From a virus: a stretch of 23,854 nucleotides of DNA. Under the pieces are notes generated by a model. It saw only the letters and a program-made list of their open reading frames with translations, was not told where the DNA came from and did not search any database. The DNA lies in the IMG/VR virus record IMGVR_UViG_3300042878_000770, positions 1 through 23,854 of that record; one strand, written 5' to 3'. A program made the position numbers and the translations under genes. Below are positions 1,844-9,690 of this stretch, piece by piece (the first letter of the stretch is position 1; every line of letters begins with the position of its first letter).

Positions 1844-3814
1844 TCATAGCCATTTTGGTCGCCATTGCCTCGGTGGAGGCTTGCCTTGTGTTAGGTTTGG
1901 CAGGTTCAAAATTGCCATCCATAATGCCATAACAATGTCTGTGCCGCTTTTTTTATCTCTAGCCCATTTAGTTAACTCATCTGTAGCTGCCAAAGTTTTC
2001 CAGTTACCACTCATGGAAGGTAGGCGTAAAGCCCCTGAACGAATCACCGCTGGCAATAAGGCTTCAACACCTAGTGATTCATCTAGTTTGTTGCGGCTAG
2101 TGGTATGTGGTATCACATTGACTCTATGTAGAGCCTGCCATTTGCGTACAAAGTCGTGAGCTAAAAGGAACCGTTGGGCTGCGTTGATTTCAACCACCCA
2201 GTGAGAGATGGGATAACCCATTTGGTATGACCGTTCTTGCCATTCGTCCATTAGCCCAGAGTATTGACCGGTCATAGTGTCGTATCCAAGGACTTCTTCA
2301 GCGGATAATTTGACACGCTCGATATCCACTACGTGATAAAGGTTGGTTTGAGGCTGGTAAATAATCCATACAAACGCCCAAAACATTGTAGGGCTGGGGT
2401 CTACCGCCACAATACTGATCCACGGGTGGGCTAAACCTTCAGGGATATGCCCAGGTTGACGGTGGTTATCTACACAGCCTGGATAGTCAACCCCATCTGG
2501 TCCTAACCCGCCAGTAATCCAAGTGCGGTGTACCAGTCGGGTGTCAAGATCAAGGTCTTCTTGCTGATACACCACGTTAAACAGGTCAGGTTTGGAGTAT
2601 CGAATAAATGACAGGTCTTTCCACGGTAAACGGCGGGGATCTAGTAGGGGTCCGTCGGGGTATGGTAAGGATTTGAATGAACGGGACTCTTTACCTGTGT
2701 CTAGTTCCTCATAATATGCTTTATAGATTATTTGGCGGTATTTTTTTTGCCGAACAGGTTGACCTTCTTGAACATCTTCAGGGCTTTCAACATCTGACCC
2801 GTCATAACTGATGTCTTCTTCAATATCGTAGGTTTCTTTTGAGAGGCAATGGGCGTAGAGGTCCCCTGATCCGAGTCTCTGTCCGACAACAGCCAGTAAA
2901 CCACCTGGGTCGCAACGTGCTTCTGCGACTCCATCCCACCGTTCAAGTAATTTATCCCTTGCGACTGATTCACGGGCGTTATCTGGTGAGGCAACGTCGT
3001 CAAAGAGGCAGAGGTCGGCTCGGTGTCCGATGAATTCTGCTTCAATTCCGTAGGCACGTACAGTTGGCTCTTTGTTGTCCAACCCGTTTCCGTCAAGCTG
3101 TTCGACGACAAATTCTTCTGCCCGCCATAAGGCACCTTTGTCCACTGGTTTGAATCGTCCATAGTCAATTGTTAAACATCCTTCTGCATCTATTGCTAAT
3201 CCCTTTTGAACCATCATCGGATCGGGAAGAATTGGGGAAACCCTTTCGAGCGTTTCACGAATACGACGAGAATACATCTTCGCCATGTTCTGAGATACGG
3301 ACCCGATCATTACACGCACACGCCGGTTGCGAACTATTGCCCACACCGCTACATCATGGAACAAAGTTGATTTGCCTGCACCTGGGGGGACGTTGAGAAC
3401 TACGAATTCTTTTTCTTCGGACTCCAATAGTTTAACAAGAGTGAGCGCAGCTTCTACTTGCCACGGACTTGGGACACGCCCTAAATATCGCCGGCGAAAA
3501 TAATCAAAATCTTCTAACCCTCGAAGGGCTTCTTCACACAACATATCGTGCGGAATAGCAGATGGCAGGTCAATGGTATCCATGAAGTCCATGTGCGCAC
3601 GTTCCTGGCGACCACCGTTACCTGCACCAGTGTTGGCTTTATGGTTTGCTTCTTTACGGTTCGCTTCAAGCTCTTTGGCTCGTTTCAACCAACGAGAACC
3701 AGTATTGACATGAACCCCTGTCTCTGCACAGGCATCTTTAATGTTTCGTCCTGAAGCTATTAAAGCAAAGAACTTGGCTTTGTCCTGAATTGGGACAGCT
3801 CTTTTTGTTCCCAT
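1844..3814 (-). CDS. terL: Terminase large subunit with N-terminal HTH
   Basis: This 656-residue protein is the ATPase/nuclease motor that packages phage DNA into proheads. Walker A is at about 143-150 (PPGAGKST) and Walker B at about 268-273 (LCLFDD). A C-terminal RNase H-like nuclease follows, with its first acidic residue in VAVDPS (about 469-474), a second candidate in VVEINA (about 540-545) and a third in TDIVMAL (about 625-631). Residues 1-50 form an extra basic helix-turn-helix-like segment (NIKDACAETGVHVNTGSRWLK) typical of small-terminase or resolvase DNA-binding domains, then a Lys/Asn/Gly-rich linker. No separate small terminase is recognisable nearby, so this segment may supply DNA recognition; that is inference. 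The start at 3814 is kept because the HTH reads straight from it. The portal follows downstream. Confidence 0.95.
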   Translation of the reverse strand: MGTKRAVPIQDKAKFFALIASGRNIKDACAETGVHVNTGSRWLKRAKELEANRKEANHKANTGAGNGGRQERAHMDFMDTIDLPSAIPHDMLCEEALRGLEDFDYFRRRYLGRVPSPWQVEAALTLVKLLESEEKEFVVLNVPPGAGKSTLFHDVAVWAIVRNRRVRVMIGSVSQNMAKMYSRRIRETLERVSPILPDPMMVQKGLAIDAEGCLTIDYGRFKPVDKGALWRAEEFVVEQLDGNGLDNKEPTVRAYGIEAEFIGHRADLCLFDDVASPDNARESVARDKLLERWDGVAEARCDPGGLLAVVGQRLGSGDLYAHCLSKETYDIEEDISYDGSDVESPEDVQEGQPVRQKKYRQIIYKAYYEELDTGKESRSFKSLPYPDGPLLDPRRLPWKDLSFIRYSKPDLFNVVYQQEDLDLDTRLVHRTWITGGLGPDGVDYPGCVDNHRQPGHIPEGLAHPWISIVAVDPSPTMFWAFVWIIYQPQTNLYHVVDIERVKLSAEEVLGYDTMTGQYSGLMDEWQERSYQMGYPISHWVVEINAAQRFLLAHDFVRKWQALHRVNVIPHTTSRNKLDESLGVEALLPAVIRSGALRLPSMSGNWKTLAATDELTKWARDKKSGTDIVMALWMAILNLPNLTQGKPPPRQWRPKWL

Positions 3815-5001: not shown

Positions 5002-5111
5002 GTGGAAACACTAACACCATGTGCTACGATGATGTCAACTTCACAAGACCTCCACGCTGGGATAGCGTCAAGGCAGGCAGGGTCGTACATCGGTTGCATG
5101 ATGCGGGACAT
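4998..5111 (-). CDS. Possible 37-residue mini-protein
   Basis: ATG at 5111 and TGA at 5000-4998, where TGA overlaps the next ATG as ATGA. The peptide includes IMQPMYDPACLDAIPAWRSC and EVDIIVAHGV, a normal-looking amino-acid mix with two Cys. The frame is open further upstream to a TTG at 5147. ATG at 5099 is another possible start. The four-base coupling to the mini-protein gene downstream is the main support. There is no strong Shine-Dalgarno in front of any candidate start, so the exact start is uncertain and the gene could be spurious. I do not recognise it. Confidence 0.45.
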   Translation of the reverse strand: MSRIMQPMYDPACLDAIPAWRSCEVDIIVAHGVSVST

Positions 5112-5264
5112 TTCACACCAGGGAACTGGGGTAGATGAATCCTGCAATCAGACAATACCGTTATGTAATTATTGATCCTATTGTGTAAGAGATTCAAGCA
5201 GCGTAATGAACGTCATCTCATTAAAACTTTCGGGTGTCGGCTAAAACATTTGGCTACGGCGACC

Positions 5265-5283
5265 TTGGTATCACTTTGGTATC
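5265..5283 (+). repeat. Direct repeat TTGGTATC x2, 11-bp period
   Basis: TTGGTATC occurs at 5265-5272 and again exactly at 5276-5283. An 11-bp spacing puts both copies on the same face of the helix. They lie just upstream of the structured RNA candidate, which suits a protein-binding site controlling it. No binding protein can be assigned. Confidence 0.5.
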
Positions 5284-5306
5284 TAAACTGTGGGGGAAGC
5301 TAAACC

Positions 5307-5426
5307 CTGGACTGTCACGATCTGGTTCCGCCGTTGGCGGCTACCGCCCTCACGTTGTTCGGTTGCTCGCAAAGAAGCAGGAACAAAACCAGTTGACGTG
5401 TCCAGCCCTGTGGGTTTTTCTTTTTT
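5307..5426 (+). ncRNA. Structured RNA candidate, three-way junction
   Basis: On the plus strand several perfect helices nest without gaps. Closing helix: CTGGAC (5307-5312) with GTCCAG (5400-5405), then ACG (5317-5319) with CGT (5397-5399), then CTGGTT (5322-5327) with AACCAG (5387-5392). Inside, arm one is CCGCC-GTT-GGCGG (5328-5340), abutting the closing helix. Arm two is TTGTTC (5355-5360) with GAACAA (5381-5386), extended by TGCT/AGCA (5364-5367 and 5376-5379). GGCGG can instead pair with CCGCC at 5344-5348, giving two mutually exclusive hairpins. A run of T with one C follows at 5415-5426, consistent with a transcript end. Function is unknown; options include an attenuator, a regulatory small RNA or a packaging/processing element. 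The U-tract indicates plus-strand transcription, antisense to the leftward packaging transcript. Confidence 0.6.
5404..5426 (+). terminator. Weak intrinsic terminator-like hairpin and U-tract
   Basis: AGCCC-TGT-GGGTT can form a short stem (one G-T wobble) immediately followed by TTTCTTTTTT. The stem is short and competes with the GTCCAG strand of the RNA's closing helix. GGTTTT at 5413-5418 can also pair with AAAACC at 5385-5390, so alternative folds could toggle termination. Confidence 0.45.
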
Positions 5427-5569
5427 CTTTCCATGCCAACTAAAGCCGGTGACTAGGCAGCTGGTTATCTCCTGCCTCCTCCCCAGCGAACCGTTTAACA
5501 CCACCCTCCGTGGTCAGCCACCACGCACAGTGAACAACCAGACCCCACACACAGCAAAAGAGTGAGAAC

Positions 5570-5683
5570 ATGGCTGAACAGGTATACATATATGTACCCC
5601 CCCGTGGCTCGGCATACCCCCAGTTGCGTTACGCTCTCTACCTACTGGTCGGTAGGCAGCCACTAGATCCCGACGTTACATAA
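5570..5683 (+). CDS. Low-confidence 37-residue frame
   Basis: ATG at 5570 to TAA at 5681-5683. The peptide (MAEQVYIYVPPRGSAYPQL, then RYALYLLVGRQ and PLDPDVT) has a normal composition. AAAGAG upstream is a poor ribosome binding site. It lies opposite a region probably transcribed leftward and contains a CCTAC/GTAGG hairpin (5641-5656), so it may be chance. Unrecognised. Confidence 0.25.
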   Translation: MAEQVYIYVPPRGSAYPQLRYALYLLVGRQPLDPDVT

Positions 5684-9380: not shown

Positions 9381-9422
9381 GGCTCCGGCTCGTGTCCCCC
9401 TTCTCACGAGTCGGAGCCTTTT
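9381..9422 (+). terminator. Strong intrinsic terminator closing the rightward block
   Basis: GGCTCCG-g-CTCGTG (9381-9394) pairs with CACGAG-t-CGGAGCC (9405-9418) around a 10-base loop, followed by TTTT. It sits between convergent gene blocks and overlaps the last bases of the leftward WhiB gene. The reverse strand lacks a U-tract, so it acts mainly on rightward transcripts. Confidence 0.85.
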
Positions 9423-9690
9423 ACCGTTTCCAGCTGATGCTGGTCGGCTGCCTAACGTGTTGATCTCTTTGCTTAGGGGTCATACCAGCCCAGAAACCAT
9501 CTCGCCTACCTGTGGCAGCTTCGAATGGTAGGCAGAACTCCAGGCATTGTTTTATGACTGGGCAGCCAGAGCAGTAGTCTCGTGCCGGTTTCCAATAAAA
9601 ATCCCGCACATCTCCGTTGGGTATTTCAGGGAAAAAGATAGACGATGGTGCGCCTTTACAGTTTGCTTTGTCATGCCACTCATCTTTCAT
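9421..9690 (-). CDS. whiB: WhiB-family transcriptional regulator
   Basis: 89 residues. Four Cys fit the WhiB [4Fe-4S] pattern: C11 (NCKG), C40, C43 and C49 (CSGCPVIKQC). The FFPE segment (about 19-22) and the GFWAGMTPKQR turn (about 65-75) correspond to the G-V/I-W-G-G motif and the basic DNA-contacting tail of the family. WhiB-like proteins are restricted to Actinobacteria and their phages. They bind the sigma factor region 4 of RNA polymerase; phage versions such as TM4 gp49 interfere with host WhiB2 and cause superinfection exclusion. Here it is the last gene of the leftward block, coupled by ATGA to the preceding Cys-rich gene. It may reprogram host transcription or division; that role is inferred by family. 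Confidence 0.93.
   Translation of the reverse strand: MKDEWHDKANCKGAPSSIFFPEIPNGDVRDFYWKPARDYCSGCPVIKQCLEFCLPFEAATGRRDGFWAGMTPKQRDQHVRQPTSISWKR

Follow-up and report, generated by a model that had tools for sequence, protein, structure and literature searches.

What is encoded in the zone where the leftward and rightward gene blocks of an uncultured phage diverge? The DNA analyzed here (the window) is a stretch of 23,854 nucleotides corresponding to positions 1 to 23,854 of IMG/VR virus record IMGVR_UViG_3300042878_000770. An earlier note, made from the letters alone, proposed that positions 5307 to 5426 are an undescribed structured RNA that folds into a three-way junction. The proposal of an undescribed, noncoding, structured plus-strand RNA in this zone held, in that a covarying core without an Rfam match was found there. 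Its placement was revised: the flagged stretch corresponds to only the variable tail of a larger predicted noncoding RNA gene. On the plus strand, the whole gene is predicted to span positions 5037 to 5430 (∼390 nt) rather than to start at 5307, with its ends put at a promoter-like site and at a U-rich tract. Comparison of relatives established a conserved, structured, noncoding RNA of the plus strand at a fixed site in these phages.

Fold, extent, and coding status of the RNA

In the noncoding region upstream of the terminase large subunit gene (terL), conservation peaked at about 5085 to 5310, 5′ of the flagged stretch, and dropped inside it. The predicted core, positions 5047 to 5296, comprises at least eight helices, a GNRA hairpin, a pseudoknot, and a lone covarying long-range pair and terminates in GUGGGGG. 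All elements are on the plus strand. Hairpin P1 (5049 to 5073) has covarying pairs at 5050-5072, 5051-5071, and 5054-5068, and two-sided changes were found in P2 (5082 to 5109; 5082-5084/5107-5109 and 5088-5091/5100-5103). The loop of P2 at 5094 to 5097 (UUGC) is predicted to form the pseudoknot with 5198 to 5201 (GCAG); this interaction was paired in all 62 class A sequences, the class to which the window belongs, and varied from U-A to C-G. Hairpin P3 (5118 to 5129) carries the GNRA loop, with C-G, A-U, U-A, and G-C alternatives at 5119/5128 and 5120/5127. P4 (5136-5141/5191-5196) and a variable extension, P5 (5144-5148/5180-5184 and 5151-5155/5172-5176), both covaried; P5 is missing from compact relatives. 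Hairpin P6 (5205 to 5222) also covaried and was the weakest helix of the compact alignment (62.5% paired). Hairpin P7 (GGUGUCGGCU...CGGCNACC; 5232 to 5264) is nearly invariant and kept in all of classes A and B; because of this invariance, its pairing lacks proof from covariation. Four pairs of hairpin P8 (5267 to 5283) had two-sided changes, and the lone pair 5261-5288 was a standard pair in 77 of 78 sequences, taking the forms G-C, C-G, and U-A. The invariant GUGGGGG (5290 to 5296) closes the core.

The strongest covarying pairing columns grouped into helices with 44 and then with 97 distinct sequences. Those at the top included 5088-5091/5100-5103, 5119-5120/5127-5128, 5138-5140/5192-5194, and 5267-5271/5279-5283. 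In order to avoid circularity, 14 compact relatives of other lineages were aligned, and one structure was written that included the pseudoknot and the lone pair. In this alignment 95% of the cells were paired, and two-sided changes occurred in 19 of the 40 pairs (72 cells in all). Not one of 500 shuffles scored as high, and versions of the structure slid along the alignment were 31 to 48% paired. A covariance model made from those 14 distant relatives only, with the pseudoknot and the lone pair outside it, matched the window once (5081 to 5298, plus strand; E value, 9.1e-29) and matched each of 78 chosen loci once.

G-U pairs were counted 151 times and A-C 7 times. This excess establishes the molecule as an RNA of the plus strand, and it rules out DNA inverted repeats in place of an RNA. 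Protein coding was also ruled out: the lengths of the P7-P8 module populated all remainders modulo 3 (50, 37, and 44 of 131), and the frame at 5234 was open to 69 codons in just 12 of 137 distinct relatives. The open reading frames across the region therefore look like by-products, as had been suggested.

The stretch from 5307 to 5426 is, as judged by comparison with relatives, a hypervariable, fast-evolving 3′ domain of the larger RNA. The nested helices of the earlier note are present in its MFE fold (-39.4 kcal/mol; a closing stem, a GGCGG/CCGCC arm, and a third arm), but this fold was not unusually stable (z, -1.31; equaled or bettered by 22 of 200 shuffles) and the opposite strand folded more stably, so that stability of this stretch alone is no evidence. 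When the window was aligned with 18 relatives that have a comparable 3′ domain, the outer closing stem (5307-5317/5394-5405) paired in just 2 to 8 of the 19 sequences, with the exception of a single pair (17 of 19). The three-way junction was thus rejected as a conserved fold. What persists is the inner helices and the U-rich tract. The conserved parts are 5328 to 5340 and 5343 to 5367. The hairpin 5328-5330/5338-5340 was kept in all 19 sequences, with G-C replaced by A-U in two. GGCGG had been thought able to pair on either side; the covarying option is the one at 5328 to 5340, not that at 5336 to 5348. The helix 5343-5348/5361-5367 was kept in 13 to 19 sequences, and its pair 5344/5366 is A-U in 13 of them and a C-C mismatch in the window. 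By eye, the palindromic CTACCGCC/GGTTG unit of the 3′ domain, resembling a mobile repeat, seems to occur twice in tandem on the minus strand 3′ of the RNA core in one relative (L065).

A promoter-like extended -10 word, TGCTACGAT, lies at 5022 to 5030 on the plus strand, with a predicted transcript start at about 5037. The word TGNTANNNT preceded the RNA in 76 of 98 nonredundant relatives, compared to 22 in shuffles, and was accompanied by a -35-like hexamer at the right spacing in 28, compared to 2.4 in shuffles. At the other end, a U-rich tract (5412 to 5430, plus strand) marks a probable terminator region, in agreement with the U-rich end near 5426 that had been noted. Such a tract was found in 35 of the 98 relatives, mostly 124 to 136 nt past GUGGGGG, and an A-rich tract was found in none; a clear U-rich tract is missing in two-thirds of them. 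A consensus scan placed plus-strand promoter clusters at the 5′ edge of the RNA and 400 to 900 nt downstream, ahead of the early genes, such that the RNA and the early genes have separate predicted promoters. The same scan detected a minus-strand cluster at the 5′ edge of the RNA, directed at terL, and none inside the RNA. Words resembling a tRNA T arm (GGTTCGACTCC) abut the RNA promoter in L126, L357, L195, L184, L350, and L354; neither ARAGORN nor Rfam detected a tRNA at these words.

Distribution, classes, and genomic setting

The RNA is found across a large group of uncultured actinobacterial phages, adjoining a DNA-packaging gene. Its constant neighbor is terL (1844 to 3814, minus strand; terminase large subunit by PHROGs), which was divergent from the RNA in all 193 loci holding both, at 189 to 2,214 nt from the P7 module. 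Hundreds of homologs of the window's TerL occur in viral contigs, and the nearest named phages listed share 25 to 28% identity with it. The covariance model matched 65 of 80 terL loci of a first set, and the 15 loci without a match have at most ∼1.8 kb of upstream sequence. It matched 55 of 80 in a second, more distant set, and most of the others have a third version in the equivalent position. Each of six records of 39 to 42 kb has a single copy of the RNA, and its distance from the contig ends varies. The idea that the site is a genome end (cos) was rejected, since contig ends do not cluster there and the distance from RNA to end varies in near-complete contigs.

Named phage records gave no DNA match. 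Bacterial genomes were scanned with a pattern that proved too loose. Among the matches listed, L293 was the only locus with a well-placed GUGGGGG; it lies in a GC-rich stretch and was judged to be a chance match. The RNA may be present in prophages.

Three classes, each of them structured, occur as alternatives at the same site. In class B, P2 and the pseudoknot differ from those of class A, and P7, P8, and GUGGGGG are retained; in class C, the sequence is different throughout, and the GNRA hairpin and the G-run are retained. Compensatory changes were found in 28 of 52 pairs in class B and in 6 of 45 pairs in class C (RNAalifold consensus). From its position, GNRA hairpin, and G-run only, we infer that class C is homologous to classes A and B and not a functional replacement. 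On a TerL tree, the class labels require 13 changes, and in the case of class B the well-supported branches demand no fewer than 10. The classes have thus been exchanged independently of TerL.

A second conserved noncoding block, E2 (5555 to 5626, plus strand), is a putative separate neighbor of the RNA and consists of AAAAGAGTGA, an AT-rich part, and CTCGGCATACCCCC. In relatives it consists of AAAAGAGTGA, an AT-rich part, and CTCGGCAGACCCCCAGTT and lies 105 to 425 nt past the RNA core. It is possibly an origin, a packaging site, or a control site.

The ends of the window overlap those of a near-identical relative, so that the two together form a circle of 39,733 bases. Recognized proteins include the terminase, portal, major head protein, tail fiber, WhiB, SSB, a RecE-like exonuclease, an annealing protein, RusA, and a DNA methyltransferase. 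The N terminus of TerL bears a helix-turn-helix with a further match to a terminase small subunit family, as if the subunits were fused. The near-identical relative encodes, next to its portal gene, a 1,577-residue protein (L493:10940-15673, minus strand) that matched nothing in PHROGs or Pfam. The WhiB gene (9421 to 9690, minus strand) indicates an actinobacterial host. Together with a genome of ∼40 kb, WhiB fits the actinophage family that has two isolates on 'Ca. Planktophila' (PMC10202952).

Type II hammerhead ribozymes, which are common in bacteria (PMC3088659), were found in relatives at L195:6831-6892 (plus strand), L357:10440-10504 (minus strand), and L062:3072-3139 (minus strand), with pattern matches in ∼20 further loci and none in the window. 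In many relatives they lie 0.7 to 1.5 kb downstream, on the strand of the RNA, between the early promoters and the early genes.

Comparison with known RNAs

A search of the window with Rfam 15 gave no match at the gathering cutoff, and Rfam searches of 12 homolog loci gave none at E values up to 5. Class C loci gave weak matches, all below the cutoff. ARAGORN detected no tRNA or tmRNA in the window, and the Rfam models for GOLLD, ROOL, and phi29 pRNA matched neither the window nor the 12 homolog loci. The papers covered here, a partial and openly accessible share of the literature dealing with large RNAs of phages and with candidate motifs, contain no description of such an RNA at terL. A resemblance to RNase P seen by eye (UAGAUGAAU and GUAAGAG) was dropped because support from Rfam was absent.

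Like GOLLD and ROOL, the present RNA is phage encoded and noncoding, has an elaborate covarying structure that includes a pseudoknot, and has no known function. In GOLLD, a conserved region is likewise combined with a variable one (PMC12286853). However, GOLLD is often >800 nt, and examples of ROOL measure ∼660 nt, near tRNA islands, whereas the present RNA is ∼390 nt or less and lies beside terL. The pRNA of phi29-like phages is likewise a small structured phage RNA near packaging genes, but there is no match to it in sequence or structure, the present classes exchange independently of TerL, and the terminase belongs to the TerL type. In its exchange of variants at a single site, the present RNA is reminiscent of immunity cassettes, and the c4 RNA of P1-like phages is also a phage RNA. 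The c4 RNA is an antisense RNA (Rfam RF01695), and the present RNA does not match it. By analogy only, a structured transcript that has a G-run, heads toward a conserved block, and is encoded by an element in which no initiator was recognized resembles ColE1 RNA II; unlike that system, the consensus scan gave no RNA I-like antisense promoter, and a role at an origin is putative. The RNA family and its architecture are new in that Rfam 15 holds no match, and the mechanism may prove to be a familiar one.

Possible roles of the RNA

The explanation to which we give about an even chance is that the locus is a stand-alone noncoding RNA gene, a transcription unit of its own whose product acts in trans during infection. 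Host RNA polymerase would transcribe the RNA from its own promoter, apart from the late and early operons, and the transcript would finish at the U-rich tract. The compact folded core would bind a partner and act in trans, with the hypervariable 3′ domain as an accessory. Classes swap between phages whose TerL proteins are very similar, so the partner would more likely be a shared phage or host component than TerL, for example, the host transcription or translation machinery. Consistent with this explanation are the covariation far above controls, the match of the independent model, the pseudoknot and lone pair that hold outside that model, the plus-strand G-U excess, the promoter-like site, the U-rich end, the separate early promoters, the single copy per genome, and the exchange of classes. 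Counting against it are the unchanging location next to terL and the presence of block E2, both of which would also suit a local role, and the lack of a clear U-rich tract in many relatives.

A rival explanation, unlikely in our estimation, is that of a replication-origin RNA: much as ColE1 RNA II does, a transcript running toward E2 would prime replication by host enzymes or license it, with the invariant G-run pairing with a C-run on one DNA strand in E2. No polymerase, primase, helicase, or initiator was recognized among the proteins scanned (small frames were scanned in part, and several large proteins had no match), the G-run is retained in all classes, and E2 with its C-run lies downstream. 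The cumulative GC-skew minimum lay no more than ∼1.1 kb past the RNA module in three of six genomes, but it was elsewhere in the other three, and the gene strand switch is also here. DnaA-like words were enriched just downstream of the RNA in a subset of loci, but none is near the RNA in the genome of the window. Being inconsistent among genomes, GC skew and DnaA-like words were rejected as proof of an origin. The consensus scan revealed no antisense control promoter within the RNA, and in a third of the relatives the U-rich tract precedes E2. It seems unlikely that an exchangeable structured RNA whose G-run anneals to a downstream C-run block replaces an initiator protein here.

We consider it quite unlikely that the RNA is a cis-acting leader of the early operon (a riboswitch, attenuator, or antiterminator). 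The RNA does lie upstream of the early genes on the same strand, and its U-rich tract could serve as a regulated terminator. However, control of the early block in cis, as proposed in the earlier note, loses weight, since the early genes possess a promoter cluster of their own 400 to 900 nt downstream. In addition, the first gene lies at a long and variable distance.

A packaging RNA like phi29 pRNA, with the terminase or portal as its partner, is about as unlikely. The divergent position of terL in every locus holding both, the single copy per genome, and the N-terminal helix-turn-helix on TerL would suit such a role, but the repeated class changes on the TerL tree show no tight match between RNA core and TerL, small open reading frames often intervene between the RNA and terL, and the pRNA family was unmatched in the Rfam scans. 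Finally, it is hardly credible that 5307 to 5426 constitutes a three-way-junction RNA of its own or runs antisense to the packaging transcript. The junction is possible in this one sequence, but it has an unconserved closing stem and no excess stability and lies ∼270 nt downstream of the promoter-like site, and the RNA does not overlap terL and is conserved according to plus-strand RNA pairs.

The RNA belongs to a family that is unmatched in Rfam 15, covaries strongly, and occupies a fixed site across a large set of environmental phage contigs. If the phage isolates on 'Ca. Planktophila' (PMC10202952) carry it, the role of an RNA that is universally kept and yet swaps classes would be directly testable.
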